From Pocillopora verrucosa (lineage: Eukaryota; Cnidaria; Anthozoa; Scleractinia; Pocilloporidae): a stretch of DNA of 64,000 bases. The stretch lies in NCBI RefSeq assembly GCF_036669915.1, contig NC_089315.1:18662010-18726009 (forward strand), read 5' to 3'. The stretch's first letter is position 1; each line of letters opens with the position of its first letter. The notes beneath the pieces were generated by a model that saw only the letters and a list, made by a program, of their open reading frames with translations, did not search any database and was not told where the DNA came from. Shown piece by piece: positions 37,126 through 64,000 of the stretch. Both the position numbers and the translations under genes were made by a program.

Positions 37126-40100
37126 TTACCATGATTTTGACCGCCCTTTGTGTTTTTCGAGGTCAGAATTTTCCAAGCCATTACTTAAAAGACGCCCTCT
37201 TGCTGAAAAGGAACGGCGTTTCTTTGACTTTCGTCTATATAATCTTGATCTTTGACAAACTCCTTGGATCAAATGCGCCCTAATTGTTGATTTCTTGCGA
37301 CGTTCGAAAAAACAGTATCCACAAGCCCATGCGTAGTTTGCATCGAGTAAAGACTTCTTCCTCCTGGTTTTCTTTTCTTGTTTACTGGTTGCACTCTCTC
37401 CAGTAGTTCGCTTTCTCACCAGCTTTAGCAAACCACTAAGCTCAGGTTGTTCCACAATGCAACTGATCTCTGATTTCTGACCGAAATATGATGCAAGCTA
37501 AAAATGCAACAAACGCATTCGATCATCAACTTTTGCAAACTAATGAACAACTGAAACTTTAAGAATTATTTTCATGCTCTATAAAAAAAATTAAAAAAAG
37601 CTTAAGTTTTCAAATTTTTTCTATAGTTTTCCGTCAGTACACACACCCTTAGTGCTTTCCGGCCTTTGAAAACACTCAACAGTCAAGCATCTTTTTGCAT
37701 TATCCCCTTCCCCACCGAAGAACAAAACAAACAAAAACAAACAAACCAAAAATTAAATGAGGTTTTCTTAAACATGAAATGACACAATATATCGACTTTA
37801 AAGTAAACACATCTTCGAGGCCAAAGTTTGTTTTCCATCATCGCGGGGTGTTCCCTGGTATAGGTAACCAAAATAGGGATTGTCAACCGAAATTCAACAA
37901 GTTTGATGAAGGGTTTCGGAAGCATATTAAGATTTTTTAATGTTTCCTGACCGATGTCTTAGCTATGAATTTTTGCGTTAACAATTAACATAATTTAACA
38001 GTATGTTAACATAATTTTGGTAACAAGAAATAAACTTTTGATTCGTAAATGAAAAGTGTCTCTGGTTCCACCAGGTTTCCCTTCCAGGTTTCTATTTCTA
38101 ATTCAGAAGTAACTCAAGGTACAAGTGTTGTTGCAACTATTGTCCTTAGAACTTTTAAGCTAAATGAATTATGTAATCAAGGCTTACACTTGGAACCGTT
38201 CAATTTTCTCTACATTTCGAACATGCAAACTGTTAGACCATGGTTCAAATGGTTCGAAATTTTCCCAAAAATAATGATTAAATATAGAAATTGAAAATGA
38301 AATTTTTTCTTGAGCCATAAAGTTGCCTTCTCTTGTAAGGAAATCCTATTGCCTATTGATACCTTTCACTTCTTACCGTGGGTCTCTGTAGAATTGTGTT
38401 TGGTTGCAGAATTATTCTTTCATGTGCTAGAGGGCTTAGCACTGAGCTTGAGTCATTCACATTGTTCGAAGAAGCTATCGACCACCAGTCATCTGTTTCA
38501 TCGAGTTTAAAACACAATAGATTGTGAGTCAACAGATTATCGTCGTTATCATCCGCCATTGCTCTTGTGTCTTGCATTTGCCTGAAATGATCTGAAAAAG
38601 TGCATGGACCGGAGAGATTTATACAGGTAGCTATGTTATTACTTAAATCAACCTCCCAATTATGGTATTGCGGACTCAGTATTATGGAGAAATTTATATT
38701 TCACTTCAACTTCCCCAATTATTTCATAATGCATTATCCAAAGAGTAAAGTGTAGCTTCCGCAAATCGCGATCACCTGGATACGCTTAGCAAAGAGATCA
38801 CTAGTATAAGGAAAAAAATGGTTGAAGCCAATCTATTACAAACAAGTGGCCTTAGCTTCTAGGACCTTTTTCATCTTTCTAGAAGGTCACAAATAGACAT
38901 TACAACCGAGGAGAAAAAGACAAAACGCTGGTTAATTTAGGGAATGTTTACAAGGAAAATAATTCTTCATGCAGTAAAGGAGACCAGCGAAGCATTGTCA
39001 AGTTCAAACTGAAGGAGTCAGGATTTGCTGTGTCTTTGGCTAAGGTCTCCCTCCCTGGCTCCAACAAAGGTCAATTAAAATTTCCTTCGTGGTTGTTTTC
39101 TTCTCAGGTATGGTATATTAGTAAAAGATCACTGTGAAATATCAGTAAAACGGGTTTTCTACTCATAGGTAATTGAAAAAATCTTCTCTTCAACCTACTC
39201 TTTTCCATTTCATTGCTTTCAAGGAATACATCATCATTAACATGATCATTGTCTGACGAAGTCTGGTTTGATCTCATAACATTGCAAATCAGGTTTTGCA
39301 CTTTACCCACGCTGGAATAATCTGGCAATTGAAGAGAAAATATACCGATTAGTTTTTCTTGAGCTCACTGAAATGCATCACCACTGGTAAGAAAGCATGT
39401 TGGAATTTTTGTCTATGAATTTACGATAGAATGGGGTCAGGAACATCAACAATAAAATTGAAATTTTTGTAACGCTTTCTCTCATAGTAATAACTACTTT
39501 ACAGCTCTAACTGATATACTTTAAAGAACACCTGTCCTAAGTTTGGGCCCCTAATTGTCATGAATAAAACTTGCAGTAGTATCAAAGTATCATGCACATT
39601 CTGACTCTAATAGCACCAGGTATATAGTACTTACTAGATTAACACTAATCATGTGATATATAGACAGTAGAGGATGCCAAATTGTTCAGTTACCTTGGAT
39701 GTTTCTCTTGTAGTTCACTTTCGTCGTTACTCGAAATGGTCGGGATGTCACTCTTGCTGTCAGTCCAGAAACTAAATCTATCTTAAGAGTTACTTCCCAT
39801 TTGTTCCGTTCAGTGACATCTGCCTTCTCCAACCAATAAAAATTGTCTCCATCTTGGTTCTTGTAGACTGAACCGAGATCTACAGAAATGACTTGTCGCT
39901 TCTTCTCCTTTTCCAAAATACTGACTGTAAGTTTAACAGCACCTGATTTTCGTTTGAAGTTAAACAAGGGTGTAATGCTCAGTGAACAAAGTATTTTTGC
40001 TGGAATGGCAAAAGAACTAAACAAAATTTTCACGTCTCAGAAAAATATATGCATCTCATGAAATACACGTCAAATAATACTTATTCGGATCCAATTTCCA

Positions 40101-43100
40101 ACAAATGCAAGAAAATATGATGATTCTTACTTCAGATCAATAAACCATATTCATTTGAGAGGTCTTCCAAAGCTAGCCCTGCCGAGAAATTAAATACAAA
40201 TTTTCGCGGCCAATCATCCTAAAATTACAAAAAAATATCCGGCTTTGAATATGATTTCATGGTGAATAATCATTCTAGAATCTGCGTCTCGTGACCTTTG
40301 CTTTCTATGCTTTCAACCATATCTTATTAATCATGCAGAAATATTTTAATAAGTGCGTGATCATGCTCGAGCAAGTAATTATCTTTAAATTAATGAACAC
40401 AATGTATTCTTTGAAAAGCCTTAAGGCTTCCGCAAACCCTTGCCAATATATCGAAGAAGTACGAGCATACATTTCACACGTAGGCGAACGAATCCTTAGC
40501 AATGTTTAGTGCAATGTTGCAATGTCGGTCGATGAAAAATTGATGGATTTATCAATAGATCGAGTGATATTGTCTTGATGTACTTTTTCAACGAGTGAGG
40601 AATAAGTATAAGAGTTAGTGTTCTTCTTTGGTTGAAACAACATTATAATAATTTGGAAAGACCATAATCTATCCCTATTAAATCATGTTACTGATTTTTT
40701 CCGCAAAACTCAACTTAAGAGCAGTCCATTCTCTTCCACTATTTTTGTTCTTTGTATTCAAACATATTAAAGCCGCTGCTCCAAATCATTGAATCAGCGA
40801 TGCATGTATCTTCTACAATGGCTTTTGTGGAAATGCAAACGTAATCAATCCTCGTAAACAGCATAAGGGTATATACTTAGTGGAGTGGCCGAGGAATATA
40901 TGATGTTTAAAATCTTACATATTAGCCATAAAATTGATCTTACCTCTATTGTCGTGGGTTCTCATGGCAGCTCTGGCGCACCTCTTTACAAATGCACATA
41001 CTTCAGTGATTTCCAGGTCGGCGTGCACCTTTACCATTACTTTTGGGTTTTCAAGGCGATATTCCAGGCCGTTGGGTCCTTTCTTAGTTTTCTTTTCATA
41101 AACATCCCTGAGATCCAAAATTTGCACTTCCACAATGTCCTCATTGTTGTTGTTCACATGTCCAGTAGCCTTGGCTGCAGTGGACTTCTGAGGAGCATGA
41201 ACGATCTTATTCATATTGCCTGAGGATTTTTAAAGAGTTGAAAGGTTTTTAATAGATTGGTGACTAGTTAACTGTAGTTGATGTTTAGCTGAAGACTGAT
41301 TTGGGGATGGAATTCTCCCTCATATTAATACTGTTTTTCTCTTCCAAATTAGCTAGGAGAGTTATGGAGAGTTCAATATGGGGTCTGATCTTATTATTTG
41401 ATCCTCTGTTTGATTCAGAGCGTTTACTTAGGCAGAAAAAAAATAGTGATGTTAACGTAGTAAATAAATTACTGTATATCATGTGAAAAGATCTATTGAA
41501 ATTGATTGCAAAAGGAAATCAACTTAGTCAATTTAAGAATACTAAAGTTAATGTAAACATATGGATACATTTACAAGTTAACAAACAAAAATTGAGTATG
41601 TCAAATCACAAACTACTTTTATCAATGTCAACAGATGTTAATGTCAAGCTAGAGTCGTGGGCAATAGGGTTTTCAATCACAGAAATGGTTTTCCTAAAAA
41701 CCTTTTAGGTTTTCCCAAAAGGCATGGCTCTCAACTGAATTGATAGATCATTGGAAATGGAGCTGGCTCTTCTGTTAAGCAAGTAACCTGTATAGTGCTT
41801 TAGATACAGGGCAAATGAGTTCAAATTTCGAGCTCTATTTTCTGTTGCATATATTGTGAAGAGACTTTACATAATATTTTATGAAGAAAGTTTAAAATAT
41901 GACTAGTGTAAATTTATCATAAGCTTGGTGGTCACAACTTTTTTTGTTGTGTCTAAATTGTAGAGTTCCAATTGGTCTTGCTCGTTGCTTCACACTTTGG
42001 GACAGAGGAATCTTTAGTGATCAATGTGGCAACTCGGATTTATGAAGCTTGAGGATATTCTTATAAGTAAGAGGACATCAGAAGAGAAATTTAGTACACC
42101 GAAACACTTGTGAGGATGCCTTTGAAGTAAATACATGCCTATAATAAAAGAATGGGTTGATTCAAGCTCTTCTTCTCTTGGAAATTAGTGATCTCGAGTA
42201 AGGTAGAGTAGTTGGGGAAAGAAATATAGTTCTTATCTTAACAGGTTCAACAAAAACAAGATGAGAGTTTTAGCAGTTAAGCATCTGTTGCAACTGTTGC
42301 TATCGATTTTGAATTTTGACAAAGCCGACCGATTTATCGACTGATAATATAAATCTATTCTTTGTGAATGAGAAGGGGCGCAAGTCTTCGGCCGAGCTAA
42401 GGATACTTTTATTCGACTAAGCCTTTGAAGGATCAACAAATGTGTCTGTAACACTTACGAAAAGCTTTGCTCGCCGTTAAAGCAATGGTTCTGACTCTCA
42501 TTTAGGGAGTTCCATTTCACCGAATGGTGCGAGCTCTTTCAAAAATTCACTTTTACGTAGAAAATTTCTATCGCTTGCACGTTGTTGCGTAATTTTGTGA
42601 TATAAATTTATTTAAGATATCGCGATAAGTTACTTCCCGAAAGGAAACCCTACGATCTAATCTGATCCAGTCTCTTCATTCAAAGGCGTCTGGGCTTCCA
42701 TTGACGTCAGCCTCGCTAAATTTGTGACCTCGTCTACGGCGACAACATAAATAGAAAATGCCCTCGGCGCTCGGTGGATTCTTACTATCCACTCTTGTCT
42801 GCTTCTTCTCGACACTTCCTTAATGCAAATAAACTCATGTGCTTATTTGCAATTTTCCTTTGCTACAAAACTTTATCATTACTAGACATTCGCCTTTTAT
42901 ATGAGTGATCAGTGATCTTTCAACCGCGAAATGTGACGTCCTCCTGTTGTGTGAGTTAATAAACCTAAAGACGCACCAAATGCAGTTTTTCGATCATTCT
43001 TTGCAGCATGTGGTTCCCGGTCAAATTGAGCAATAAAAGTTATTTCTGATCACATTAGTTGGAATATCCAGCAACAGTTAATTCAACCGTGCCGTTACAG

Positions 43101-43759
43101 ATGGGTTACTTATTATTTCTTTAAGAAAAGAAGAACAACAGAACCGTACGGCTCACCCATGCGTTCATGAATGATAAAGGTGTATTCATGTTGCTGATAT
43201 AAACTTTAAGCAAGTGGCTTCAAGAGATGGAAATTACTTTCAAGGAGATTCATAAAGTTTTTTGGGCCAAATTAAAACTATTTCAATTTGAAAATCGAAA
43301 AATTTTCCCGGACAATTCTAGTCAGAGAAGTAAACAGTAGTCACCTTCCTATGACCGGCAATCCCACAAACTTGCATGCGGTGATTTCTTCAGCCGATGA
43401 GGCAGAACGTACCGTTTGACAAATTTGCCAATGACTTTTAAAGTGACAAACTTACCTGAGAGATTCCATTTCGAGGGGTCGCTCGAGCTCGTCTTGGTCT
43501 TAAATGGCGTATAACTTTCTCGCGATTCAATCTTGTTTGAAAGATGCGCTGCATCATACGGAGAAAGGACTGACAGTGAGCATCCTAGCTCAGACTGTAT
43601 CAGCTCGTCGATGTCATTTAGGGTTTCTTCCCAATCTGAATTAAACTGCATTGGGCTTAATTGCGCTGTCTGGTGCTTCCAGCTGTTGTGAGCTCTCTGA
43701 AAAGCTGTTTCCAGAAAGAACTCTCTGTATAAAATTCTTGGCTCGTTGATAGTTTCCAT
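37126..43759 (-). CDS. Gene B: acidic N-terminus + domain X + C2HC-finger protein (531 aa)
   Basis: Six exons: 43759-43456, 41219-40944, 39999-39694, 39321-39199, 38591-38377, 37497-37126 (stop TAA included). Intron phases are 1,1,1,1,0, identical to gene A, and the 1596-nt CDS is in frame. Exon 1 contains FNSDWEETLNDIDEL, an acidic motif shared with gene A. Residues ~130-290 are domain X: VEVQILDLRDVYEKKTKK, FVKRCARAAMRTHD, SVDLGSVY, YWLEKADVTERNKWEV, SRPFRVTTK. Exons 4-5 are low-complexity, acidic/serine-rich linker (DETDDWWS). The last exon carries the basic patch EKKTRRKK and a C-x2-C-x12-H-x5-C finger (Cys467, Cys470, His483, Cys489), in which CFFERRKKST is shared exactly with gene A, then a basic C-terminus. 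A role as nuclear DNA-binding protein is inferred. No domain is identified to family level. Confidence 0.8.
41220..43455. other. Gene B intron 1, non-coding
   Basis: AT-rich, with short open frames only, none with recognisable motifs. A GC-richer patch at 42660-42800 (ATTGACGTCAG, CTCGTCTACGGCGACAA) is the only compositional outlier. Confidence 0.4.
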
Positions 43760-47674: not shown

Positions 47675-50600
47675 TCATTCTCTGGAGACTTCTGAGCGTG
47701 TGCAATGTAGTTTTTGGCGTAAATATTCATAATGTTTAACTGACTGGTATATTTTCCAACCTGCGTGGGGCTTATCTTGATAGAAATAAACAGCAGAGCA
47801 GTTACTGTTTACAACGAAAATAATTGGACCACAAATCTGTTCGTTGTTCGAAATGCCAGAAACTGGAGCGGATAGCTTGATTACTCCGCCATAGGCACAG
47901 CGATCCACGTTTAGGTAGTAATGGTGCTTTCCAGGCACTCCTGAAATTCACAAAAATCATTGACAGTTAATAACATTCAATTTGCGTTTCTACATCATGG
48001 TTGTCAACTCAAGTTTGAATGTATGCGCCGTAATAGCTGTAGTCACGTTTTTGGTACTCCTCAATGTTCTTATTTTGTCAAATAAAACCGTTTTGGCTTC
48101 TTACGGAAGCTCTCTAACAGACAAGGATTTAGGGTCTTCATCTAGTTTTCAACTTCAAGTTCCTCCGTCAAATATGAAAACTAATGGAGACCGAGCATTC
48201 TCTTTATGTCCCCCCAAGTTTTGGAACTGTCCTCCCAGTTATATTAAACGTTGCTCCAATGTTACTCATCTCTGAAAACTTATCTTTTTAAACGATATCT
48301 TATACCTTAAGTTATTTTAAGTTTCATTATTTTTTTAAAATCATAGTGAAGTGCTTTGGAACTTTTGTATAAAGCGTTACATAAATAATTTTATTATTGT
48401 TATTATAATTTTCCTACGTTTCCAGGGAATTCACTTTGACATGATTGTGCAAAGCCCCCCCCCCCCCCCCTAGTCGCTAGCATTAGGGTGGCGAGCCAGT
48501 CACAGAGGATGAATGATGTAGTAGCTTGTTAAGTGTGCTGCCTTTAATCAATTAAAAATTTTGAACTTAATTAAATTTGACATCACTGGGCTGGTTTCAT
48601 TGGATTTACGTTCGACCCGTCTGATTTTTGTCCATATTTTCCATTGCTGCCAAACTTTTGGCTTTCCAGTATTTATTTCTGAGTTTTTCCTCAATTATAA
48701 ACCATTTTTTTATCAGGTCAATTGAATCCAAGATCAGTTGCAATGGCCACTGCTTTAATTCTTGCACTCCCGAGATTGGAGAAATAATTGTTCCTCCCGG
48801 ATGCGACATAGTCTTTCTGAATAATTTAGGAGAAGTTTTGTCTAATCGGGCTGACAACAGATACGCTCGCTACACTACTTGCGTGGTCTATTTATTAGAT
48901 CATGATGATATAGATAATTTCGAAGAGTTGAGAGGACATCCTATGGGGAGACACTTATAAAAGCTCCTCTTGAGAGCACTGAGCAACAGAACAGCTAGCA
49001 TAAAACCGCACACACAAACGTTGCTTCAGTCGGACAAGTGGCCTTAAGAACGTGTAAGATTGTTGTACTTACTCTTTGAATCCAATTCGGGAATGTCATC
49101 CAAATGCGGCTTCATTCTCTCTTTAAGTCTATCCCACGTAAATTCAAGGCCAATTGTTGTGCAACGCTGTAATAAAAAATTCAACGAACGTTTCAACAAC
49201 ATTTCTTTTAGGTCTATGGTAATGCAGATATAGTTACCTGAATTCGTTTTGTTTTTGCAGAGGAATTTTCCATAATAAAAACTCGGCGAAAAACTATTTG
49301 ATTTAATGACAAAGCCTGTTTACGAATCTGAAAGACTCGCTGACTGGCTTATTGATTGAGTAACTGAGTGTATTTGACTGCCCTGTGACTAACTTGATGG
49401 ATGACAGATGGACATACACTTTCATACGATTGATTTAACCCGTTTGAAATATATATAAGCCACATATATACCTGTGCCGTGTCACGTTCGGGAATAAATG
49501 TGAAATTGCATTTGGAATCTCCTAAGGAACCATGCTTGCATATCCAATATCGTAAAGCACTTCCCGGATATAAGAATTGGTACATCCAGAAAGCGGTTAA
49601 CGCAAGCGCTAAAAAGGCCACACACAATCATGCGCCGCACTGTGGAAGGAAAAGAACAAATAAACAAAGTTTAAAAAAATTAGTAAAATAAGACATCCTC
49701 GCCTCATTGCTTGACCTGAACGGAGTTTTTAGTCTTCTGGAGTTTTTAGTCTGTTTACTACAAAGTTAACTGGTTAGTCAGTCGGTAAGTCAGTAAGTCA
49801 GTTGGTCCGAAAGTCGATCTGGCAGTCTGTCTGCCGATAAGTAAGTCAGTTGTCATTCAGTTTTCAGTCAGTGAGTCAGTTATTCGATCGTTTGTTCAGT
49901 CAGCCAGTTAATCGCATGGGCCAGCTGGCCTTGAAGCAGTCCACAGCCACTTGGTCAGTCAGTCAGTCAATCAAGTTAGTCAGGCATGTGGGACGTCTGT
50001 CTCCTGGTTTGTCTGAAAGTTTTTAAAAGGAGTGTGTCACTTAATGCAGGTAAAGAAATTAGCTTTCTTTTCTCATGATATAATGTTATACTGATGCCAA
50101 TACAATTGGATCGCCGATGCGTTCTGATATAAAGAGGATCGGAACTGAAGTCGTAGACTTGAATCAGAGACCCTTTAAAAGTCGCCACATATATAAAGTT
50201 TCTTGTACTTACTTCGGCTCGCCTTTCTTCTTTCCTTTCGCAGCTTTGCAGCCACTTCCACGTCGAATCGATTATACATGTTTCCTATTTCTGATTTGAT
50301 TTCTTTATCGCTTACTCCAAGAACCATGCACACAAAACTCTGAACCAAGTTAATGTCATTGAGCTTAGATGCTTCCTTTTCTTCCATTGACATCCCCAAT
50401 AGAACACTGCCGCCACCCAAGATCACACACGGAGGCAAATGGGACTCTGGGATAGCAGTGCCAGGATGATCTGGGCTCACATTAGTATAAATTCGTTCTC
50501 CAGCCCGGACAGATCCCATACACTTTACTTTGATTATTCCAATTACGCAAATAACATCAGTGGGATCTATAACAGAAGAAACACACGAAGAAGGAAGAGA

Positions 50601-53600
50601 AAAACAAAATAAACAAAAAAAAACGTGATCTAATTTAAAAGGAACTTTTGGACTACAGTGACTTTGCATTTATTGAACATGATTTTAGCCTGACGTTTGG
50701 GTAACGCAGGCGAAAGTGGCATTTTTTGGGTGAAATATGCGCACAACGTTCCTGAGAGAACCCAAGCCACGATTAAAGTAACAGTAAAACAAAACAAACC
50801 GTTTTGACTCATGGCCGGAGTGGCCTCTAGGTAGGCTGACCGGCTGATGACTCCTGCCATGAAAGCTTGCTTTCCATTTTGGCTGTCTAAAAGCTGTACG
50901 CATGCTGTTCCATCGTCACTTTTGAAGAACCCAAGCACATCACCTTCCTCAAATTCTTTGTACAAATTAGGATCCTTCACCTTAAAGTGATATCCAATAT
51001 CGGCTCTTCCTTCATTTACTGTCAAGTTGTCATATTTTAAACTTCCAATGTAAGCACTTTTCGCTTCCAAGTGTTCAATCACCCGAAGGTTTTGAAAGGA
51101 ACTAGGAACTAAAGTCAATAACAAAGAGATTTTTTATATGATAGTTTAGGTTGAACTTATGTGCGCGCGTATTAGTTCAAAGGAATCTATAATTTCGACA
51201 TTTCAGTTTTTCTAGATTTGAGGGTAGTATAATGGTAGCAAACAGTAGAACCTGTATTTGACGAACCTCTATATAACGAAGTCCTCGGCATAACGAACCA
51301 TACTCTACAGCCACAGCCAAAGTTACAGTGAAATGTATGGGACAAAACCTCGATGTAACGAACCTCAAAATAACGAACCTCGATATAACGAAATCCTCGT
51401 TATAACGAACACAATCCAGAAGCCCAAACATGTAATATACCCCGATATGGCGAACAAATGTCAACACGTGAAAATTTTTGAAAAAGGATTTAAGAAACTA
51501 AACTAGTGAGCAGCACTCTGCGGACAGTAGTTGTAAAACTTCCTTATTCTACGACGCTTTTCGTCGACTTCTTCAGGGAGTTTTACAAGTTAACATGAAA
51601 CTAAACCGTGGCCCCTTAATTTTTTTCTTACCTTGCTTAAAAATTTTTAAAATTTTTCACAACTTAGCCTGTTTTTGTTCGATTGTAAGTCCAGCCAAGC
51701 CTATATTGGTTGTGGCTTATAAATACAGGCGTCTGATTTAATTTTTTTCAAAAACATTTCTTCATATAGACATTAAAGCACAAATGTTATTTACAGTAAT
51801 CGTTCCGTTCCCAAAAGGCTAAGTAGCGCAATGTCACACCACAAAGAAAAAAAAAAGAAAAAGGAAATCAAATCAAAAAAATCAAACTCACCTTTCTTTG
51901 GGGTTGAGCCTTCTGAAGTGGATTCCACTGAAGAGGAATCTGTTTAGTTTAAAAAGTGATGGGTATAAAGCATCTTTGTTTACTTATTTACTTTTTGCAA
52001 TTTTTCGTATCACTTTGCTTTCAGTTTTGAATGAAACACGGAGATACACAGTTTGGTGGGTTTAAGAAAGTGAACTAAATACAAAATCAAATGTTAGGCA
52101 ACTAAACGAGAAAGACCCCCCTTCTGTGAAGGATAAAAGGTATAGAAAGTACAAGTAAAGTTGAATAATGAACGGGAGAATGCATATTCTCCTAATTCTG
52201 CGAAACTAGCCATTTTTCCTTGAGATTTAAATTCTTCATCACGCCATGACTTGGTTCTTCTTTCTCACTTTTTTGCTTAAAGAGAGGATGAGAAGAAATG
52301 TCCCAAGTGAATTTTCTGTTCGTGCTTGTGGGATCGACTTAACAAAAAATGTCTACTTACTGTGTGTATTCCACTAACCTTCACTGGATTTCCTTTTCTT
52401 AGGTAAGCCAGTTTTAGGTTTACTTCTTAGAAGGAATGGTTTACTATAGAACTCTTGAGTCTCTCCAGACTGTGCGGGCAGCTCCACCAAAAGCTGAAAA
52501 ACGTTTTTCTTCTTCATGTCTCCTTTTTCCAATTTATACAATGGAGGACTCCAGGGGTTCGGGCCATCGTATTTAGAATCCAGATCAACTGAGAATAATT
52601 GCTGTACAAATCATGTAATAAAAGCGTCAATATCATCCACTTCACTGTGTGTAATTGGCTCGTTTGTGTCATAGCAACTATGATGACCCAAAATCTAAGT
52701 GACGGATCTATATGTCTGCCTCTGGCCTTAATATCATTTCCAATGATCTGACTCATCGTCAGTAAAGCGGGTCGATAGATTCCGATGAAAACCTTGGTGG
52801 TTTCTAGTTTCCTATTGGGTTCTAACTATGTATGTTTTAACAAGTGTCTGGAGATGAGGGAAAATCGGGGACCAGACCAGAGCTTTCAGCACTCGTTCTT
52901 AGTGGTAAAGAAGGCTCCAAGGGCGAGAGCGCTGCCTGCCGTCTGCTGTCAAAAGCATTCGCCAGAAAATCGGTTCAAACAGAACATTTCACCTTTAAAA
53001 CCATTCACAGATGGCAAGTGCACGCACAGACTGTACATGCAAACGGTGTTGTTGTTGTTTTTTTTAATAGAAGTATTACTGGAGAATTACTTGTAAAAAC
53101 AGTGACCACGGGTTCACTTGTATCCCCATAGCTATCTACAATATCTAGTTGGATCCTTTTGCTTTTGTCGTGATTAATGAACTCCCTGAGTTAACTTCCC
53201 AATGAACTATGTATAAGTTGATTTGAGAAGAATTTATCTATGTGTGCATAACCTCATCTGAGACACAAGGGAATAATTTGCCACAGCTGCGCACTTAGAC
53301 GCAATATGAGAATTTTTAACCCTTCCTCGCCAGGTGGACCTATGTAAACATAGAAAAGTCCTAAATTTCATTTGTGAAATAATTCTCAGTTACCCACGAT
53401 CCTTACATATCACAATCATATTTCCATACAGACGCCTCAACAATTCTATGCACTCACAGCGTGCATAGATGAGTGTTTACTGCGTAAGTGTAGCAGTTAT
53501 TTTGTGATACAAAATGTAAAAGCAACACCAATCATAATAGAAAAAGAGACAAAAGAAACATTTAAAACGAGTTGAATGATGAAATTTAACTTACCCTTGC

Positions 53601-56600
53601 GCCTTTATGTCCCTCAAACTTAACTGGCAAACTTACTGGTCCATTCCTGTCGTCGCAAAGTTCAGCAGCTTGTTTTTCACGCATTACCCAAACACGTATA
53701 GAGGTGATGTCGAGGATTTTCACGGGAGACCAAGCCTCCAATTGGATGACACCATCTTCCACGCGCTGTCTTGCTCTTCCTCCTTTTCGTGATTCTATTT
53801 TATCAAACACGTCCTTTTTTTCCAGAGTGACGAAGCGAACGTCTGGTTTGTCTTGGAAAACCTCGCTTTCAGTGGAATTGAAAAACTCTGCTACCGTTTC
53901 AGCGACTGTGAATGAGAAAACAGTAGTTTTATGTTAGGTAATTTTAGGGCAGTCCTTTAGTGCACATATGCCACGAACTATTGGTAATAACAACATCATT
54001 TCATTTTGTGGCTCTGTCAATAGGATCAAGTTATGAATGCTGCGAACATAAATTTCCTTTGTCCCTATTTACCGTGTGTAAATGATACGGTTCAACATAA
54101 TTTTTTATCTCTGGAATTACCTTTTAGGGTACAACACGGCCTATTTGTGAACATGAGAGCGCACCTATACCCTTCAGAGGTCTTCACTGACTGCACCTGA
54201 TCCTAAACTGAGTTGAATTGATTCTCACATTTTTCATCATCAGGCCCCGATCACTTGAACAGATGACAGAGGGAAATTTACAATATGTATGTTAGTTTAC
54301 TGTTATAATTAGTTTCGTTTACTCATACATGTTCAATTCAGTCGTTGAAATATGATCAAGAAATCGCACCAATCAGATGAAATGAACGAAAAAAATTGAT
54401 ATGAGAAGAAAGAGCGCAAATCATCCCTTAAAATGAAATACTAATCCCACCATATTTTTTAGACGGGCAGTCTGCACAAAAGATTGGTAAAAAACAGGAA
54501 AGCACATTTGTTTAAAATATTCTACAGACTAATTCGGATCAATTCATAGGATTTGTTATTCATTCATCTAGATTGCTGAAATGCTCACGGTTTTACACAA
54601 ATTCGAAAACAGTGAATTGGATATTATGGTTGAGAATGCATCGTTGAATCATTGAACAGGAGAATCTTGTTCAGGAGAAGTTAGGGGTCTGTATTCCTTT
54701 TGTAGTTTGCTGAGACAAGAGAATTCGAACCTGAATTTTCAAAAACAAGAGGAATAAAGAATGACAAGCAATCACTTTCGTAATTTTCAAATTTTGTAAT
54801 CTGTTTCATGTGCAATGTTTTAAAACAACGACTGGTAATAATCAATCAATCCCCCAAATGTACCACACAAAGGCGCGATTCATGCGGAAATCAGTTGTCC
54901 ACCAATATCCGAGCGTAATTAACTGTCTGCCCTACGATTAGGAAATAAATCTTGTTCTGGCTTTTACACAAAGTGATAAGATTATAATAAGTCCAAAATA
55001 CATTGAGCAACTAAAACGTGACGGTAACGCAAACATTCAGACTGAATTAGTCGTCTTTCTAAAGGGAGCTGGTACTGAATCATTAATCTTCGTTTCCACA
55101 ATAAACAAAGATAGGTTCAAGTATAGGCCTCATGCATCATACATTGAACCTGAGTAAGCTGTTGTTTTCAATTCACTGGCAACTTAAAACAAGCGTTAAC
55201 ACACAAAAGTTCTTACTTTGCATTTATTGATATCTGAGTAAGCGAAGATCACGTTTGAGGCGCAAAAGCACCGAACACTTTTTCCCTGAAACGGAAAAAG
55301 GTGCGAAAATCGCACCTATTGTTTTGCCTTCAACAGCGAGGTTTATTTGCTTCAATAGACCAAAAAACAAAAACGCGAGCCTGACAATAGTCTAAGAAAA
55401 CCAAAACCAACCCGCCTTTCTACACACTCTCAACATCGATATTTTTTTAATATAACCAGAATTTGTGGCATTGAAGTCGATAGTGAGTTCCTCATTGACA
55501 ACGCAATAATGTCGGTTGGTATTTTGTTCGCTTTTTCTTTTGGCTTGCTGTATGGAGCCTTCCAAACAAAAGTCCCAACAAAAAAATGTGCCAGAGTGTG
55601 CTGCCGGCCAACTACGCAACACCCGTCATTGACCAAGCGAAAATGAAACTCTATAAATTTAAACCGCTAATCGTCATAAACTGCTCACCCCTGACGCTAC
55701 TGTTTATATTCCTATCTCATCTTCCATACTGCATCAGCCAATCTGCCGCTCAAGTCCTTTTACCTTGCCTTTCTGTCTGCGTTTGCTGTTTCTGCGCACT
55801 TCAAGCGGAAAAAGTGAAATCAGTCAAACGTAAAAAGGTGCGAAAATAACACCTTTTTGTTTTCTTGGCTTGAATACTCTTTTATACTCATCGCGCTAAT
55901 GGTTGAACATTGACAATGCGAGAAGAAATTTTCAGCAGAATACAATTTAGACTTCTGCGATCAGTCCTTAAGGCCTGCCTGCGTAAACGGGCCTTAATGA
56001 AGACAAATATTGAGCGAACACAGCTTAACTGCGTCCTGTCCTGGCTTATAAGCTCTAGACCGCATTTTCAATCACTCCAAGCTACTCGCGGCCCCTTGCC
56101 GTGAAAACATGAACTGAAAACAAACTATTATGTCACAAGCGGCTGAATTCCAATTTATTTTATACTGACGGCTTATCTTGCCTCTGAAGAAGTCAGAGGA
56201 AGTTACTTCAAGAGAAAATACATTAACGGTCCGCTCGTTTCAAACACTGTATGACAATCGTTACCCTGGACAATTACTGACTAACCCCCTGTTAGTCTGT
56301 TCAAATTTTCCCAAGTAGACTACCGCTGGGGAAAAATGTCATCGCCGACAATTTGCCGAATGAATCCGAATCAAGCAGAGTAAAAGCTCGTGATACTAAA
56401 TAGAAAAGTCCCTTAGGATGGATAACAAAAGGCCAATTGTATTAAAAAATCCCAACCATAACAATAAGCAAAGTTTGATATGTAAAATTGTCTAGCTTTC
56501 ATGCGCGGACGGTGGAACGCCACAAGCTACTATTAGGTACTAAGGAAGTATTGTTTTCCAACAGTGTGATCGTATTGGCAAACAATAAGACCACTTACTA

Positions 56601-56674
56601 AACTGATCGTCGTGTCCACCGGGTAGGAGAGGCTGTGTCAGTTCTTCCAAGTCTTGTCTTGTGTTACCGTCCAT
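47675..56674 (-). CDS. Gene C: membrane-tethered domain X + Peptidase_G2-like protein, with a 2-nt lesion in the TM exon
   Basis: Exons: 56674-56599, 53905-53595, 52601-52379, 51939-51892, 51108-50800, 50566-50213, 49639-49472, 49166-49073, 47940-47675. Order of parts: short acidic start (MDGNTRQDLEELTQPLLPGG); domain X ~46-190 (NGPVSLPVKF, SVDLDSKYDGP, YKLEKGD, YSKPFLLRSK); PKKRK at 196-200; serine-rich linker; Peptidase_G2-like fold ~224-430 (ADIGYHFKVKDP, EEGDVLGFF, MAGVISRSAYLEATP, VKCMGSVRAGERIY); basic stretch; one TM helix (VAFLALALTAFWMYQFLY); Cys-rich tail. The layout parallels MYRF: DNA-binding domain, trimeric self-cleaving chaperone, membrane anchor. The TM exon is 168 nt against 170 in gene D; the missing 2 nt lie in a TG run, so the annotated frame ends at a stop at 49482 before the helix. 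All other phases agree with D. It is either a truncated allele or an assembly error. Confidence 0.8.
48150..48415 (+). mobile_element. 5'-truncated LINE 3' end in gene C intron 8
   Basis: The plus strand encodes GDRAFSLCPPKFWNCPPSYI, the conserved C-terminal block of L2/CR1-type RTs (AFS..AP.LWN.LP). It is followed by a frameshifted or stopped remainder and the 3' UTR words GTGAAGTGCTTTGGAACTTT and ATAAAGCG, then a TTATTATTGTTATTA tail. It is a dead fragment from a LINE family different from the one at 1.5 kb. Confidence 0.75.
48455..48470. repeat. Poly(C) run, 16 bp
   Basis: Uninterrupted C16 (G16 on the transcribed minus strand), in gene C intron 8 just after the LINE fragment. Confidence 0.95.
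49760..49985. repeat. Degenerate (AGTC)n microsatellite
   Basis: Long run of GTCAGT/AAGTCAGT words (GTCAGTCGGTAAGTCAGTAA, CAGTCAGTCAGTCAATC) with point changes, in gene C intron 6. Confidence 0.9.
51240..51460. repeat. ATAACGAACCTCG tandem repeat
   Basis: Many copies of a 13-15-bp word (CTCGATATAACGAA, CTCAAAATAACGAAC, CTCGTTATAACGAAC, CCCGATATGGCGAAC) lie in gene C intron 4. The word type is widespread in marine invertebrate transposons. Confidence 0.8.
51512..51590. repeat. Short inverted-repeat element
   Basis: TTGTAAAACTTCC and GGGAGTTTTACAA face each other about 60 bp apart, enclosing the hairpin CGACGCTTTTCGTCG. It is probably a fragment of a dispersed element, next to the ATAACGAA repeat. 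Confidence 0.6.
55250..55870. repeat. Pair of hairpin-bearing direct repeats about 540 bp apart
   Basis: GGAAAAAGGTGCGAAAAT (55.29 kb) and GTAAAAAGGTGCGAAAAT (55.83 kb) recur. The first forms an 8-bp perfect stem AGGTGCGA-AAA-TCGCACCT (55299-55317). The second forms a shifted 9-bp stem, AAAAAGGTG with CACCTTTTT (55832-55858). Both lie in gene C intron 1. Confidence 0.6.
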
Positions 56675-56829
56675 GGTTGTCTAAGAGCCTTTTGCCTTTT
56701 TTCTTCCTTTTATTCGACAAAAATGAAAAATTTGCACCTCCCCTGTTAACTGTTAATCGACTGCCCTTACCAAACAGGAATCTTAACAACCCGAAAGTCT
56801 CAGATGTAGTGACGAACTATGTCTTTGAG

Positions 56830-57910
56830 CTAAATTCGGGTTTCCCCTTCTGCTCGGAAACGAGGCTTTTAACTTCCTGTTTTGTTGCTTTGGATACGCT
56901 GACCTTGATATCATGATAGCCATATGACAAATTGTAACGCTAAACCTGGCTATTCTTAGTCAAGGATTGCCTATTAACTTTCATAGATGCCATTGGAAGA
57001 CATTTGTGGTAAGCTAGAGCTCATTCTCAGTTAGAAGAGACGGCATATCAAGGTCGAGAACACTTGCGGGCGTGACTGAACAATAGCTCATTATATTGCA
57101 AGTCACGCGTCAGAAATGTGGAGAAACTGGACTTGGTTCGCATACTCCCGAGGAGGCATGATTTACTTTGTTTGACACTCTCCTTTAAGGAAAATTGCAA
57201 TTAATTTTTTCCCCTCTTTCTTTCATAGTTCCCAGCTGCCTTCGATTAGGGATATGAACTTAGGCCACAGTCCATTACCACTACGGCAATGGACTCCTAC
57301 CAGAATCAAATAACTGTGGTGAGGGGTTGACAAATATGGGCCACCAAAATTGATCATTATGGCGTCCAGTGCCAAATTCAAAGATCCTCAGAAGGCGTAA
57401 GTCAAGTGAGTAACAACAATTAAATCTTATGTATATTTAGGTTTTTCCTTCTGCCTAGAATCGGGCTCGCGGCATGTCAAGCATCAGGAATGCAAAGAAA
57501 ATTGATTAGGTTCGAATACTTACGGGAAACCATGATTTCCTTGATATCAGCCTGTTCCAGGCTTTCAGTAAGTAAAACAAAGTGCGATAGTAAACAGCAC
57601 TTTACTATTAGAGGAGTGAAAAAACGAGACAAGTTTATGGTCGGGTCGTGAAACATCCCTCGATTTACCGCCACTCACTATTGTACCTCGTTCTACGTCG
57701 GTAACAGGCTACCTTTATATTACCCTAGATAAAATTGGTGTTGTTTTGTTAGTTTGTCATGCTTCATTGCTGTCTCCGGTTAGGGATAAAGATAAAGCTA
57801 GAAGAAAATATAGGGACATTATTAAAAAAGCCAATTAATTGTGGATTAAAACAGTAATTAGGGGCACCAAAATAGATTATTATGCTGCCTTAGCGTCACC
57901 TTTAAAGTGT
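56830..57910. repeat. Diverged tandem duplications upstream of gene C
   Basis: GGTTTCCCCTTCTGCTCGGA (56.84 kb) resembles GGTTTTTCCTTCTGCCTAGA (57.44 kb). GGTTCGCATACTCCCGAGGAGG...CATGATTT resembles GGTTCGAATACTTACGGGAA...CATGATTT. TTAGGGATATGAA...CACCAAAATTGATCATTATG resembles TTAGGGATAAAGA...CACCAAAATAGATTATTATG. Period is about 430-600 bp. Non-coding, in the C-D intergenic region. Confidence 0.55.
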
Positions 57911-59179
57911 TGCCAAACGCCAAAGATATTTAGAAAATTATGACAAAAAAAAGAATGACTAAGCTGAAAACCTGTATTTCCAAAGTTAAATTTTATTGGT
58001 TTACACACTCGAAATTAACGGAATGATCAAGGGATATAGATGAACACAATTATACATTATTCCAGTTTTAACTGAACAAAACTGGCAGGTCGTCTGAAAA
58101 AAAAAATAGGGAAGTGGTTGTTGATACGAAGAATGAAATATCCTCACGGGGTGTGATTTTTTTTATCTTTTAAATATCAAAGATATTAAACATATGCTTA
58201 GCATATGAGTAAATAAGTGTTGACAAATTTTTGCCTACGAAAATTTAAAAGCAAGAAGCATGAATATTCAGGCACCTATACTTATCTACATCTTACATCA
58301 CAACTTTAATCGAATTACTACCCAATGCCATGGTGATTTGAACTTTGGTTTGGCTTTTATCAACTAGATATACAGCTCAAGACCCCTTCCAAAACGCTTT
58401 GACCATTTCATGCTGAAGGGATGTCGTTTTGTTGTTTGTGAGGCCTCCAACATAAACTTTGATGAAAAGTAGCAATGCTCACGAAAACCTCAATGGCTAA
58501 CCGAAGAAAGATGAAAAAAACCTTCAAGTGAAAATAAGCTCCTGAACAAGAATATTTTTCCATGGAAATTTTCGAATGGCTTGCACAGTAAATAATATAT
58601 GGAATATAAAGGTCAATCAGATTTAGCTCCAATCCCAAAGGAGAGGTATGCCTCATAAATACTTTAGTTCTTATCTCCATTTTATAAATGTACCATAAAA
58701 AGATTACCACGTAGCGCGTTGAGGTTCCAAAGAGTAATCTAAGCGTTTAAATGTCGTTTTTTAATGTGATAAAAAATTTTATATCTATCTATGGACGATA
58801 GAATTTTGGAAAGAAGTCAGTTTCTGGCTACCAAAACACGCAGAACTACAACAAGCCAACCACAACTAACTGCTTGTCTGGTTGTCCCGAATCGAATGGA
58901 ATTTTAAAATGCAGTCTACGTCTTGATTATTTTCATAGCTACTTATAACCAGCAGAGAGGAAAACAAATGTTCTCCAGAATATCTCTTCTCATTTAGAGG
59001 AGTCACGTCACGGTCTGTTAATCTTTTAAAATTTACCCTTAATATTTACAAATTGCACATCTACAAAATCCACATCAATCGTCTCCATCCTCAACTATTT
59101 TCGTTCTTTTTTAGTTTCCATGTTCGTTAGTTCTAGAGACCTTTACATCTGAGCGTCGAAAATCATACGGGATTAATTT

Positions 59180-59415
59180 GGTTTTGCTTTACTTCGCTGA
59201 TTGATCTAGAAAACTCGCGGCAACAAATCATCCAATCAGATGCAGAGCTAAAACAAATCCTAACTTGGTCACACGCGTTTTCCCGCGCTTTAAGAAGGTT
59301 GCCTGTTGTTGCTTTGAGTTCTATTGGTTGATGATGGTGTTAACCTTCGTTCTGATTGGTAGTTGTGATTACTTTGGTGTTGGATTTTCGAACCTCAATT
59401 GAAAACTGCTCTAGT
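59180..59415 (+). mobile_element. CCAAT-rich dispersed repeat, copy 1
   Basis: Word order: TCATCCAATCAGATGCAGAG, CTTGGTCACACGCGTTTTCC, CGCGCTTTAAG, TTCTATTGGTTGATG, TTCTGATTGGTAGTTGTGAT, TACTTTGGTGTTGG, CCTCAATTGAAAACTGCTC. The same order recurs at 62.77-63.06 kb. I recall this as an abundant coral repeat. Alternating CCAAT/ATTGG boxes are conspicuous. Confidence 0.75.
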
Positions 59416-59503
59416 TAACCCGAAATTCATTTTGTGGTTTTGTGAAATTGAAGGTATTTTGCTCCTTACACGTTCAAATCATGACCTCAACTTCGTGTCT
59501 CTC

Positions 59504-62500
59504 TTATATTTTAAATTCCTCTGCAGGTATACATTTAAGATAATCTCGCAAATCTTTGTTTTGTACCGACGTATAATTATTCCAGCCATCGTTAGGCTTA
59601 TCCTGGTAGTAATAAACAATGGAGCAGTTAAAATTTATGGCAAAAATAATCGGCCCGCAAATCTGTTTGTTGTTAGAAATTCCCTGGACTTGAGCAGACA
59701 GCTTGTTCGCTCCACCATAAGCGCATCGATCCCAGTTTAGATAGTAATGGTGCTCACCAGGTACCGCTGAAATCAAATTCATAAATCAAATGAAGTACTT
59801 ATCATATGAAAAGGTTGAATTAATGGTAAAAGACAATTTGGTATTAAAAACAGAGTTGATAATGTAAATTGGCCACCGCAAATGATTTCCAAGGCTAACA
59901 TTTCGAGTGATGATCTTCCTTCAGAGCGACACGCTCGAAACATCAGCTGTAAACCTTTGCAAGGGCCAATCAATGTTATCAACTCAGTTGATAAAACCAA
60001 ATTATTTTGTAATATCGCAACAAACCCAGAACCACAGTTTCTTTCGAAACATATTCCTTCTATTCAAAGGCTTGCAACTTTCAGACATCCCCGTAGAAAT
60101 ATTCATTGTTTAAAAAATACCTCCCTCGTCGCCGTGAGCGGTTTGATCCATCACCATTTCTGCATGACACTTTGTACACAGAAAAAAACAATTCAAGGAA
60201 TTTAAACTCAGCTAACTTGACTAATACTTACCAAACTGCCTTGGAAAATTCTCTTTCTATCAAATCTGTTCTATTTTCCTTATCCTAAGTTGACTCAAGC
60301 CAGGCATTACACGGGTGTTGTTACAGATGGGCTTACCTGTAGAATTTAGCGGAGGAATACCGTCCAAATGCGGCGACATTTTTTGTTCAAGTCCATCCCA
60401 AGTGAATTCAATACCACGGGCATCACAACGCTGCAATTGCAGTTGGATATATTACTTGGAATGTAATCCAGAATTGTTTCAGTTTTGCTTCACCATTTAC
60501 TGTGATTGGTCTACAGTATTCCTAAAACCACTTTTAACCAATGTCATGCCGATATTTAACCGATTGCGACTGGCTCGATCACGTTTTAATTGACTACTCA
60601 TACCACTCCAATCTAATTGCGCATTTTACAAAGCGTATCGTGGTTTCCGTGGTATAAAACAACTAGCACGGTGAGCTATCCCGAGCATTTCGTTAGTCCA
60701 CCGCAGTATCATACCCAGACCTTTTCAGTTCAGAGCATCCACTTTACAGATTACAGAGTCTGTTACAAGGTTCATCTTAGACTGAACGGACCATGAAAAG
60801 TTACCTCCATATTTTATTTTTTTGAGCCATTCTGTTTTAATTGAAATAGTTACTTGCATGTAATGTAAATTGGCCACCGTAAAAAAGTTCTAAAGCTGAT
60901 GTTTAACTTAAGCTTTACGCCACATCGAAGAGTCGAAGGGCTAACTTTCGCTTTAGAAACTTCTTACGCTGGCCACATTATCGACTCAGTTGACAAAACC
61001 CCGCAATAATCGACGCAGTACCATACTTTCTTCATAAACTTACCTTCTTTAATCAATACGTAGATCATTTACTTACGTACCTGATGTATTTGGGACGTGG
61101 GAATATATCTAAATGAAGCCCTGTGACCTGGAATGGATCCCTGTTTGCATATCCAGTATCGTAATGCACTTCCCGGATACAAGTACTCGTACATAAAAAC
61201 AGCAACCAAAATGAGCAGAATGACGAAGCCCCACCCCATCACGCACATCACTGAGTAAGAGAAATATAAAATCACGCTTAAAAAGCTAGATAGGAAGACG
61301 ATTCAACAAAATCAGTCGATTAGCCAAAGGATCAACATTAAAAGCAAGCAAGACATTGATCGAGCAATTAATCGATCGATGGTTTAATCAGTTAGTTATG
61401 CTTGTATGTGTATGTTTGAAGCCTCAGATGATCACTTCCCCGATGAAGCTTTTCAGGGCCAATACGAACAAATTGAAACATTAATACTAAACTAATAATA
61501 AATGTTTAAAAGCCCCTTTTGGTCGGAGGAAAACCAATTGGCTATACATCAAGTGCAGCCAAGGAGTTGAACTTGGGGCAACTGAAAACGAATCTATTGA
61601 TAAACAGAGCGAAGGGCTTAAACCCGGGACTACCAGATTACAAGTCCAGCGTCCTAACCACTCGGCCACACTGTTTCATGTAAGGAGGTCTCTACAGAAA
61701 AAAAGGAAAATATTACTTACGTCTTCTAGTCTTCTTCCTCTCTCTTCGCAGTCTAATAGCCAAGTCCATCTCAAAGTGGTGGTACATGCTTTCTATTTCC
61801 GATGCAATTTCTTTATCACACACTCCCAGCACTATGCACACAAAGCACTGAACCAAATGTACATCATCCAGCTTGGAGGCTTTCTTTTCTTCCATTGCCA
61901 TGCCAAGTAATGTACTTGTTTTGCCGAGGAGCACACTGGGAGGCAGATGGGACTCTGGGATGGCTGTTCCAGGATTGTCCAAGTCCACAGAAGCGTAAAT
62001 TCGTTCTCCCGCCCGGACAGAACCCACACACTTCACTTTGATGACTCCGATAACGCAAACAACATCAGTGGGATCTAAGAAGGAAAATTACCTCCAGTAA
62101 ATTCCCTACCAATTTTGGCAAGCTAGTCATATACATAGCTAGTTAAAAAAAACTCACAGCTCACAACTATAGCATCCAACGTGATTGCAACCCTGCATAA
62201 AAAATTCAGATCGGTTTTAATAAATATGAAATTCTGCTACATGCACTTTTGTTGCCCTTTAAACTTTACTGGATTGTAATGTGGAAATAACAAGATTAGT
62301 TAGGAACAAACCGTCTTCACTAATAGAAGGTGTGGCTTCAAGGTACGCTGATCGGCTTACGACGCCCGCCATGACGGCATCTTTTCCATTTTTGTTGTTC
62401 AGCAGCTGTATGGATGCTCTCCCATCGTCACCTTTAAAGAAGCCGACCACATCTCCTTCTTCAAAGTCTTCACACAGGTCAGGATCTTTTAGTTTGAAGT

Positions 62501-64000
62501 GATATCCAATGTCGGCCTTCCTCGCACCTGCATTAGAGACTACAAACGACAGGTGTTCGATGTGCGCACGCTTGGCTTCCAAGTGGTCAATTACTCGTAG
62601 ATTTTGAAACTCGACCGATCCTCCTGAAGAAGGCAACGAAAAGATGCTCAGATATTAAATATAGCAACATTTTCCAAACAACAATGTCTTGATGGCTCGA
62701 TGAGCAAGGGAACATTGTGCAATCCAATATCTGCTTGACGCTGATGAGACGGGTTCTGAAGGCCTAAGAGCAATTTCAATGGAATGTCGAAAGTAATGCG
62801 GGATTGCTTTGTATTTTCTTCACTTCGCTCTGTGATTGGTACCAAAGACTTGTGCCTCGCTCTCGACCAATCAGACGCAAAACTAAAACCAGTCTTGACT
62901 TGGTCGCGTGCTTTTTACCGCGCTTTAGGCAGTTTGGTCGTTCGTACTATGAGTTCGCATTGCCTCTTGAAGGAATTTACTTTTATTCTTCTTGGTAGTT
63001 GTGATTTCTTTGGTTTCGGTTTTACGACACTCAACGGAAAATACTTTACTTCGTATCTATTTTCTTTTACGTTCGAATTGAAGCCAGATGAGCACTGCAA
63101 ACTTTGTAACAGCGTAGTAATGAATCAAAAAATTTCATGGATTGAGGTGCAGGGAGATTTCAACTCTTGAAATAAATGTTTGGCTCAGTGAACTCAATTT
63201 ACTCAGTTACCATGTTGAGTGCCCTTGAGTTGATAAAAACTTTTATTTTCAAACAGTGTTTTACTGATTGTGCGTTTGCGCGAAGGGAAACCCTGCTTCG
63301 TGCCCATAAGCTTCACGTCCGAAGAGACAGGGCGGGGCTGGGGGAGGGGATTATTCACAACAACTTACTTACCTGTCATGCTAACAGAACTGTCTGGACT
63401 GAAATGAACAGGTGAGTCTGCAAATTTAAAAATGTAAAAGGGAAACAATTGTAGCTGGTGGATATTATCAAAAAAAATTGGCTGACAATTATAATAACTA
63501 TGTACAGTGACCTTACACCCTTGTTTTGATGAAAATGACATATCTTGCGCCGCTCCTATTTTAAACTTAATTGGCGAGACAGTGATGAATAGTAGTTATA
63601 TGAAGGCATTTAAAATTCTTTCTATCCACCTATCTTCATCAATCATACATAGTTTTCTTCCACTTTTTAACTTGGCGGATCCATCGTAAAAAGTCGCCGG
63701 CCCACCGCGCGAGCAGAGAATGATTATTCATTCATGTAAACTTAAGCTTTTATAACTAACTTTCTCTAACTTCTCCGTTAATGAAGAGAGGTTTGACCAC
63801 TAACCTTCTCCTTCTTCTTCTTCTCCTGTGCTGTCTGTTTAAATAAAGATACCAAAAATAAGTGGAGTGAAGCCTAGGTCATAACGTTTATTAGGTACTG
63901 CAAGTAAATTTAATTGGGTGAAAACATAAAACGAAGTATCAAAAGTTATACTTGCTGACGGTGTTCCTTGATTTTATCATGTTTTAGGGAAAACAGATAT
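59504..64000 (-). CDS. Gene D (3' part): Peptidase_G2-like, single-pass membrane protein; 5' end outside window
   Basis: Visible exons: 63834-63805, 63417-63373, 62623-62312, 62074-61721, 61250-61081, 60430-60337, 59766-59504. All splice phases agree and the 422 codons are open to TAA at 59504. Small acidic/serine exons (DSTGEEEEGE, SPVHFSPDSSVSMTG) lead into a Peptidase_G2-like domain: FQNLRVIDHLEAK, ADIGYHFKLKDP, EEGDVVGFFKGDDG, MAGVVSRSAYLEATP, then VKCVGSVRAGERIYASVD and LLGMAMEEK. A helix ending RRERKKTRR precedes one TM helix (GWGFVILLILVAVFMYEYLY). Basic residues on the N side imply N-in/C-out. The outer tail has six Cys and NST, NCS and NYT sequons. In phage proteins, Peptidase_G2 trimerises and self-cleaves. 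By analogy the N-terminal part, which gene C predicts to be domain X beyond 64000, would be released from the membrane. Confidence 0.8.
59834..60006. mobile_element. MITE with long inverted repeats, copy 1 (gene D last intron)
   Basis: The left arm GAGTTGATAATGTAAATTGG (about 59853) is mirrored by AATGTTATCAACTCAGTTGA near 59973; GGCCACC/GGGCCAA and AATTTGGTA/AACCAAATT extend the pairing. The core has GAGCGACACGCTCGAAACAT. It is the same family as the element at 60856-61000, and I recall it as very common in corals. Confidence 0.7.
60856..61000. mobile_element. MITE with long inverted repeats, copy 2 (gene D intron)
   Basis: Left TAATGTAAATTGGCCACCGT and right GCTGGCCACATTATCGACTC are inverted copies. 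Interior words GTTCTAAAGCTGATGTTTAA and CTTTCGCTTTAGAAACTTC also pair. It is a diverged relative of the copy at 59834-60006. Confidence 0.7.
61424..61675 (-). mobile_element. tRNA-derived SINE in gene D intron
   Basis: The minus strand opens GTGTGGCCGAGTGGTTAGGA with a Pol III A box (TGGCCGAGTGG, 61668-61658) and a B-box-like GGGTTTAAGCCC (61625-61614). The head is Leu/Ser-tRNA-like. The body (TTGCCCCAAGTTCAACTCC, CCGACCAAAAGGGGCTTTTA) and the 3' part (GGCCCTGAAAAGCTTCATC) match a SINE I recall as abundant in corals. Its 5' end is 46 bp from a gene D exon. Confidence 0.8.
62770..63060 (+). mobile_element. CCAAT-rich dispersed repeat, copy 2 (gene D intron)
   Basis: CTTCGCTCTGTGATTGGTAC, CGACCAATCAGACGCAAAAC, GACTTGGTCGCGTGC, CCGCGCTTTAGGCAGTTTGG, TGTGATTTCTTTGG and TTTACGACACTCAACGGAAA follow the same order as the copy at 59180-59415. 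Open frames across it are incidental. Confidence 0.75.

Follow-up and report, generated by a model that had tools for sequence, protein, structure and literature searches.

A conserved hexacorallian family of membrane proteins in Pocillopora verrucosa that joins an Ig-like domain to a phage-virion-type barrel in a MYRF-like layout

The animal protein MYRF and MrfA of Dictyostelium are built in the same order, with a nuclear-type domain, a basic signal, a phage-virion-type domain, a helix, a membrane segment and a C-terminal tail. According to the relevant passages of PMC8326128 and PMC3742440, MYRF and the S74 chaperones carry a Ser-Lys dyad at the cleavage site. Here we describe two minus-strand genes, C and D, in a 64,000-nucleotide stretch of the stony coral Pocillopora verrucosa (contig NC_089315.1, positions 18,662,010 to 18,726,009; the window in what follows), and their neighbours A and B. 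A first-pass annotation made from the letters alone had proposed for gene C a MYRF-like layout assembled from different parts, namely a DNA-binding-like domain (domain X), a Peptidase_G2-like autoprocessing domain and a membrane anchor. The layout itself is borne out, since domain X, the barrel, the long helix, the membrane segment and the Cys-containing tail are found in one protein in all 20 aligned relatives, and a further likeness to MYRF and MrfA is that the proteins probably form trimers. The differences from MYRF are also clear. At the sequence level the 17 Pfam families that the 20 members match at E up to 10 include neither NDT80/PhoG nor Peptidase_S74/ICA, there is no conserved Ser-Lys dyad, the barrel is of another kind, and domain X belongs to an Ig-like family of its own that has no Pfam model. 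The fungal candidates with NDT80 plus a membrane segment, as presented in the relevant part of PMC13294678, lack the ICA domain like the coral family but, unlike it, keep NDT80. A term search of that article found neither Nematostella nor coral; cnidaria are named once, in connection with acetyltransferases. By the sequence tests made, the coral family is therefore not a member of the MYRF family, nor is it established as Peptidase_G2.

The architecture and its conservation firmly place C and D in a conserved membrane-protein family of Hexacorallia (stony corals and sea anemones). A search of 5.8 billion proteins gave 24 matches with E <= 0.001 among 7,999 candidates scored, and a second, alignment-based search, in which 7,999 candidates were likewise scored, returned 23 of these plus P0025. 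The named members come from Orbicella, Oculina, Porites, Acropora, Montipora, Stylophora, Actinia, Exaiptasia and Nematostella, and among the candidates scored neither search gave a named match outside Hexacorallia. The family was not found described in the open-licence PMC literature, among the matches listed. Alignment A1, to which the counts out of 20 refer, holds 20 of the 24 matches (P0009, P0010, P0011 and P0024 were excluded as partial or odd); A2, A5 and A6 are 11, 11 and 8 rows of A1, A7 holds 23 of the 24 (without P0024), and A4 holds 15 of the 31 matches of the gene B search. A basic cluster lies between domain X and the barrel in 19/20, the only such match of P0016 being inside domain X. 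In the tree of the 20 rows, three sea anemones and stony corals form a group of 11 (support 100/99), and because this group contains both, the layout predates the split between them. A second group of three (99/98) comprises Actinia, Nematostella and Montipora; the duplication is dated less firmly, because the Montipora row, its only coral, has a long branch and its position was flagged as unsure by the program. Over both barrel exons C and D share the same residue at 146 of 220 aligned codons, with dN 0.22 and dS 1.43, and the two genes are therefore under purifying selection.

Gene C has nine exons on the minus strand from 56674 to 47675 (Table 1), with GT-AG borders throughout and consistent phases except at exon 7. 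Its product runs from an N-terminal arm through domain X, the PKKRK motif, a Ser-rich linker, the barrel region, a basic helix and the membrane exon to the Cys-containing tail. All these parts are present in P0001 (616 aa, from a 2,492-base contig with 83 member sequences), which is 98% identical to gene C. In tblastn P0001 matches exons 1, 2, 3, 5, 8 and 9 at 97-100% and exon 6 at 88%, where the match overruns both exon ends and the translations agree by eye; exon 4 gave no separate match, and its residues are the same when the translations are compared by eye. Because a 9-kb gene can read open in 2.5 kb only when spliced, the contig probably represents a transcript. Domain X and the barrel thus stand together in one transcript-sized sequence, not in separate ones, which agrees with the exon chain first drawn for gene C. 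Exon 7 is met by P0001 in two frames that join near 49610. With the acceptor at 49639 the exon is out of frame; the one at 49608 gives an open frame, in which the membrane segment is poor (best 19-residue hydropathy 0.89, compared with 2.79 in gene D and 1.54 in P0001). Of the parts annotated at first, domain X, PKKRK, the barrel exons, the helix and the tail stand, while the frame of exon 7 is broken, the membrane segment is weak and the Peptidase_G2-like label finds no support in Pfam.

Gene D had been said to repeat gene C from the barrel on. It does contain the barrel, membrane and tail exons, all within 62623-59504, but it probably does not start at the barrel, as two linker exons lie upstream. 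In Pocillopora damicornis a public gene model of 1,165 aa, P0025 (pdam_00018281), joins D and C, and this fusion is probably an annotation artefact. P0025 matches most exons of both genes at 93-100%, the lower values being 78% for a 23-residue linker piece and 71 and 88% for gene C exon 7, one value per frame. It carries a complete domain X upstream of the gene D barrel, and gene D therefore probably has a domain X too, located beyond base 64000 and so past the end of the window.

Domain X is modelled as an Ig-like sandwich at residues 43-192 of P0001 (AlphaFold2 from 20 sequences, mean pLDDT 68, pTM 0.36, domain X blocks 60-90), a kind of sandwich shared, in the model, with Ig-fold transcription factors of the Rel, NFAT and p53 kind. 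Foldseek gave no match for it below E 0.001. Generic Ig chains make up most of the matches; NFAT1 ranks 5th, p50-RelB 36th and p53 45th, each with poor rmsd. By the model, domain X is a fold used by several transcription factors, and nothing further. A stronger hint on its function, still at the level of sequence, comes from the neighbouring genes A and B. The domain X of the C-type family and that of the gene B family are the same by hhalign (probability 99.8, E 2e-28, 11 C-type against 15 B-type rows), and where gene C has the barrel and anchor, A and B end in a conserved C-x2-C-x12-H-x5-C finger. Gene B has no barrel and no membrane segment. Both genes match transcript-sized contigs (P0051 for A, P0028 for B), and the 2,321-base contig of P0028 matches all six exons of gene B at 79-98%. 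The gene B search gave 31 proteins, of which the named ones are all from stony corals. Domain X thus appears to be a cnidarian domain family without a Pfam model among those searched here, and the Ig-like fold together with the finger-bearing paralogues makes a DNA-binding-like role plausible.

The best eight structural matches of the barrel are capsid decoration or cement barrels of tailed viruses, including the base of phi29 gp8.5 (6QYY), Pam3, HFTV1, Sf11, BB1, Pa193 and TW1. The coral barrel shares this fold but sits within a eukaryotic membrane protein. That another phage virion domain had been recruited, as the first-pass annotation proposed, is thus supported at the level of the fold, while no bacterial or viral donor was found: 19 pattern matches in viral_contigs and 88 in genome_contigs gave no confirmed relative. 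In Pfam, PHROGs and NCBIfam no family exceeded its curated cut-off, or in PHROGs fell below E 0.028, for any part of the protein; for PF22758, the model tested for capsid decoration or cement barrels, the barrel reached at best 19.8 bits, below the cut-off of 27, and 3/20 members matched it at all. Sequence searches of the PDB gave nothing useful, and no significant sequence similarity was found between the barrel and the E217 cement protein (alignment of 4 sequences out of 357 records) or gp8.5. In a summed pairwise test the observed score was reached by shuffles in 39/300 for gp8.5, 16/200 for phi29 G2, 33/200 for cement and 65/200 for the domain X control, none of which is significant. Against a viral structure library no match fell below E 0.001; a phage tail protein and a tail-fibre-like protein are among the first seven matches (E 0.02-0.7). 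The chaperone structures 3SUC and 3GUD are not among the fold matches listed, an absence that excludes nothing. As an observation apart, the segment HLEAKxAxIxxL ahead of the barrel (window 50800-51108 and 62312-62623) is well conserved and has low AlphaFold2 confidence; we take it to resemble a phage fibre beta-helix repeat.

After the barrel the model of P0001 shows a long helix at residues 409-464. Behind the helix comes a hydrophobic segment, its hydropathy above 1.6 in 19/20 and 1.54 in P0001. The net charge ahead of this segment is positive in 19/20 (0 in P0015) and exceeds that behind it in 18/20, and the tail contains N-glycosylation motifs (sequons) in 20/20 and four to eleven Cys. 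These features suggest that the N-terminal part is probably cytosolic and that the Cys-containing tail faces the lumen or the outside. So simple a count is complicated by a further stretch exceeding 1.6, which nine members have within the barrel and P0016 at its C end, and by sequons that in 18/20 also precede the membrane segment.

We consider it most economical to read C and D as trimeric, membrane-held nuclear regulators that are MYRF-like in outline, with a probability of roughly 50%. The N-terminal part, probably cytosolic, would hold domain X and the basic, NLS-like stretch; the phage-virion-type tandem barrel, followed by the long helix into the membrane, would probably form a homotrimer, with the short Cys-containing, sequon-bearing tail probably in the lumen or outside; and a cut between barrel and membrane, or within the membrane, would free a nuclear fragment in which domain X contacts DNA. 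According to the portion of PMC6542822 concerned with it, phi29 gp8.5 is a homotrimer of tandem barrels followed by a stem. Release would probably proceed without the self-cleavage chemistry of MYRF.

How the fragment might be freed can be judged from the barrel. If it were a true Peptidase_G2 chaperone, it would trimerise and cut itself at the Asp of an ADI(G/A)Y motif, freeing domain X. A profile comparison with nine phage G2 domains (9 of 116 phage records) gave a score of 28.5, which none of 100 column permutations reached (maximum 20.5). Reversing the profile gave 13.8, and the scores against cement and two unrelated profiles were likewise lower, at 10.8, 10.3 and 11.1; as a control, G2 against the E217 cement profile scored at chance (34/100 permutations). 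The Asp of the phage cleavage motif, moreover, aligns by eye with an Asp present in 20/20, and the motif of phage Carin1 Dpo31 likewise has Ala before Asp. In the portion of PMC13317679 that deals with it, Carin1 Dpo31 systematically lost its chaperone domain upon expression. The mature phi29 gp12 ends at residue 691 in the corresponding part of PMC6542822, and this residue directly precedes the Asp of D-x-x-E. However, the profile match covers 29 columns at probability 27 (19 in a first comparison), a forced global alignment has probability 1.8 and leaves the Asp motifs unpaired, the single-sequence tests are weak (16/200 shuffles), and hhalign against phi29 gp12 alone is uninformative. PF11962 is matched by none of the 20 members at E up to 10, whereas the positive control phi29 gp12 gave E 2.6e-97. 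Both residues of D-x-x-E are invariant in the nine phage sequences, and the Glu three residues after the Asp is, we presume, catalytic there; in the coral proteins the motif reads D-I-(G/A)-Y in 20/20, with Asp256 by eye opposite phi29 Asp692 and Tyr259, on that alignment, at the Glu position. The next invariant Glu is absent in 20/20, and the coral proteins lack the long insert in which the phage domains carry NPDYDP and ERPEW. We thus regard a self-cutting G2 barrel as very unlikely, and the Peptidase_G2-like assignment as weak. Autoprocessing in general finds no support either: since there is no invariant Lys in P0001 222-429 and D-I-(G/A)-Y replaces D-x-x-E, both known self-cleavage chemistries are unlikely in the barrel. 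Another chemistry is conceivable, as Glu274, Arg309, Ser310, Tyr312, Glu314, Asp326, Cys329, Glu346 and Arg347 are invariant in the 20 members. The GA-1 and phi29 appendages, treated together at first, also have to be separated, as in the relevant passages of PMC4690869 and PMC3742440 it is the GA-1 chaperone (3GUD) that MYRF and T5 resemble, while that of phi29 (3SUC) differs more. Within the reading as nuclear regulators, the analysis favours release by ordinary regulated proteolysis, as in ATF6 and SREBP, where the barrel would serve only to clamp the trimer and would go along with domain X. The catalytic pair of neither chaperone type is conserved, and decoration-type barrels assemble and have no known cutting activity; no protease site was identified, and we hold this account at somewhat less than even odds.

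C and D could also be trimeric receptors or scaffolds that signal from the membrane, in which domain X is a protein-binding Ig domain that was never a transcription factor and the tail binds a ligand outside. The conserved Cys-containing tail with its sequons would fit, as would the greater closeness of domain X to generic Ig domains than to any single transcription factor, but the basic NLS-like clusters between domain X and the barrel in 19/20, and the paralogues A and B, which combine domain X with a C2HC finger without a membrane part, speak against it, and we consider this rather improbable. Gene C in the window, finally, might be a decaying copy, with gene D alone functional. The frame break near 49610, the alternative acceptor that leaves a hydropathy of 0.89 and the long branch (0.54) to P0001 and P0002 speak for this. 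However, both the 98% identical P0001 and the gene C half of P0025 are intact and open across exon 7, and the remaining exons of gene C are open; because of these two open sequences the break may equally be an assembly error or an allele, and decay seems unlikely.

Returning to C and D as nuclear regulators, it is possible, though we put it forward tentatively, that a second class of membrane-held trimeric transcription factor arose in hexacorallians, separately from MYRF, through the fusion of a lineage-specific Ig-like DNA-binding domain with a phage-virion decoration-type tandem barrel and a membrane anchor, with soluble finger-bearing sisters in the same cluster. If so, animals would have a second such regulator, independent of the first, that is tethered to the membrane beside a bacterial-virus-type domain, and the essentials of the MYRF design would be the trimer and the anchor, the self-cleavage of S74 being dispensable. 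The tandem gene cluster is now defined, and its relatives are accessible to testing in Nematostella.

Table 1. Features of genes A to D in the window (window coordinates)
Feature	Position	Strand	Evidence or remark
Gene C exon 1, start codon and N-terminal 25 residues	56599..56674	-	ATG, GTAAGT donor; P0001 1-25 at 100%
Gene C exon 2, domain X (Ig-like), first half	53595..53905	-	splice sites; P0001 26-129 at 98%; predicted fold
Gene C exon 3, domain X, second half, and basic motif	52379..52601	-	splice sites; P0001 at 97%
Gene C PKKRK, NLS-like motif	52389..52403	-	sequence
Gene C exon 4, Ser-rich linker, 16 residues	51892..51939	-	residues as in P0001 by eye
Gene C exon 5, start of beta-barrel region	50800..51108	-	P0001 220-322 at 100%; predicted fold
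Gene C exon 6, rest of barrel and start of long basic helix	50213..50566	-	P0001 match; model
Gene C exon 7, membrane segment	49472..49639	-	frame breaks near 49610 if acceptor 49639 is used; acceptor 49608 keeps it open
Gene C exon 8, tail	49073..49166	-	P0001 497-528 at 100%
Gene C exon 9, Cys-containing tail and stop codon	47675..47940	-	P0001 530-616 at 100%
Gene D linker exon	63805..63834	-	upstream exons probably past window end
Gene D linker exon	63373..63417	-	P0025 237-259 at 78%
Gene D barrel exon 1	62312..62623	-	P0025 at 93%
Gene D barrel exon 2 and basic helix	61721..62074	-	P0025 at 98%
Gene D membrane exon (ends approximate)	61081..61251	-	P0025 487-543 at 96%; hydropathy 2.79
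Gene D tail exon	60337..60430	-	P0025 543-574 at 100%
Gene D last exon, Cys-containing tail and stop	59504..59766	-	P0009 406-493 at 75%
Gene B, 512 aa, six exons, domain X and C2HC finger	37126..43759	-	P0028 matches all six
Gene A, same type as gene B	11377..19700	-	six P0051 segments at 87-100%

Some minor features of the window were also seen. The N-terminal ends of genes A and B carry an acidic motif, LNDIDEFIQSELG, that is conserved in the finger-bearing family and could be an activation domain. On the minus strand, 28023-27868 looks like a first exon of the finger-bearing type (46% to P0051 1-52) and is perhaps a partial duplicate, with no further P0051 match near it. In addition, long open frames at 1483-4608 on the plus strand and 177-1569 on the minus strand resemble, judged by eye alone, endonuclease/reverse-transcriptase proteins of non-LTR retrotransposons.

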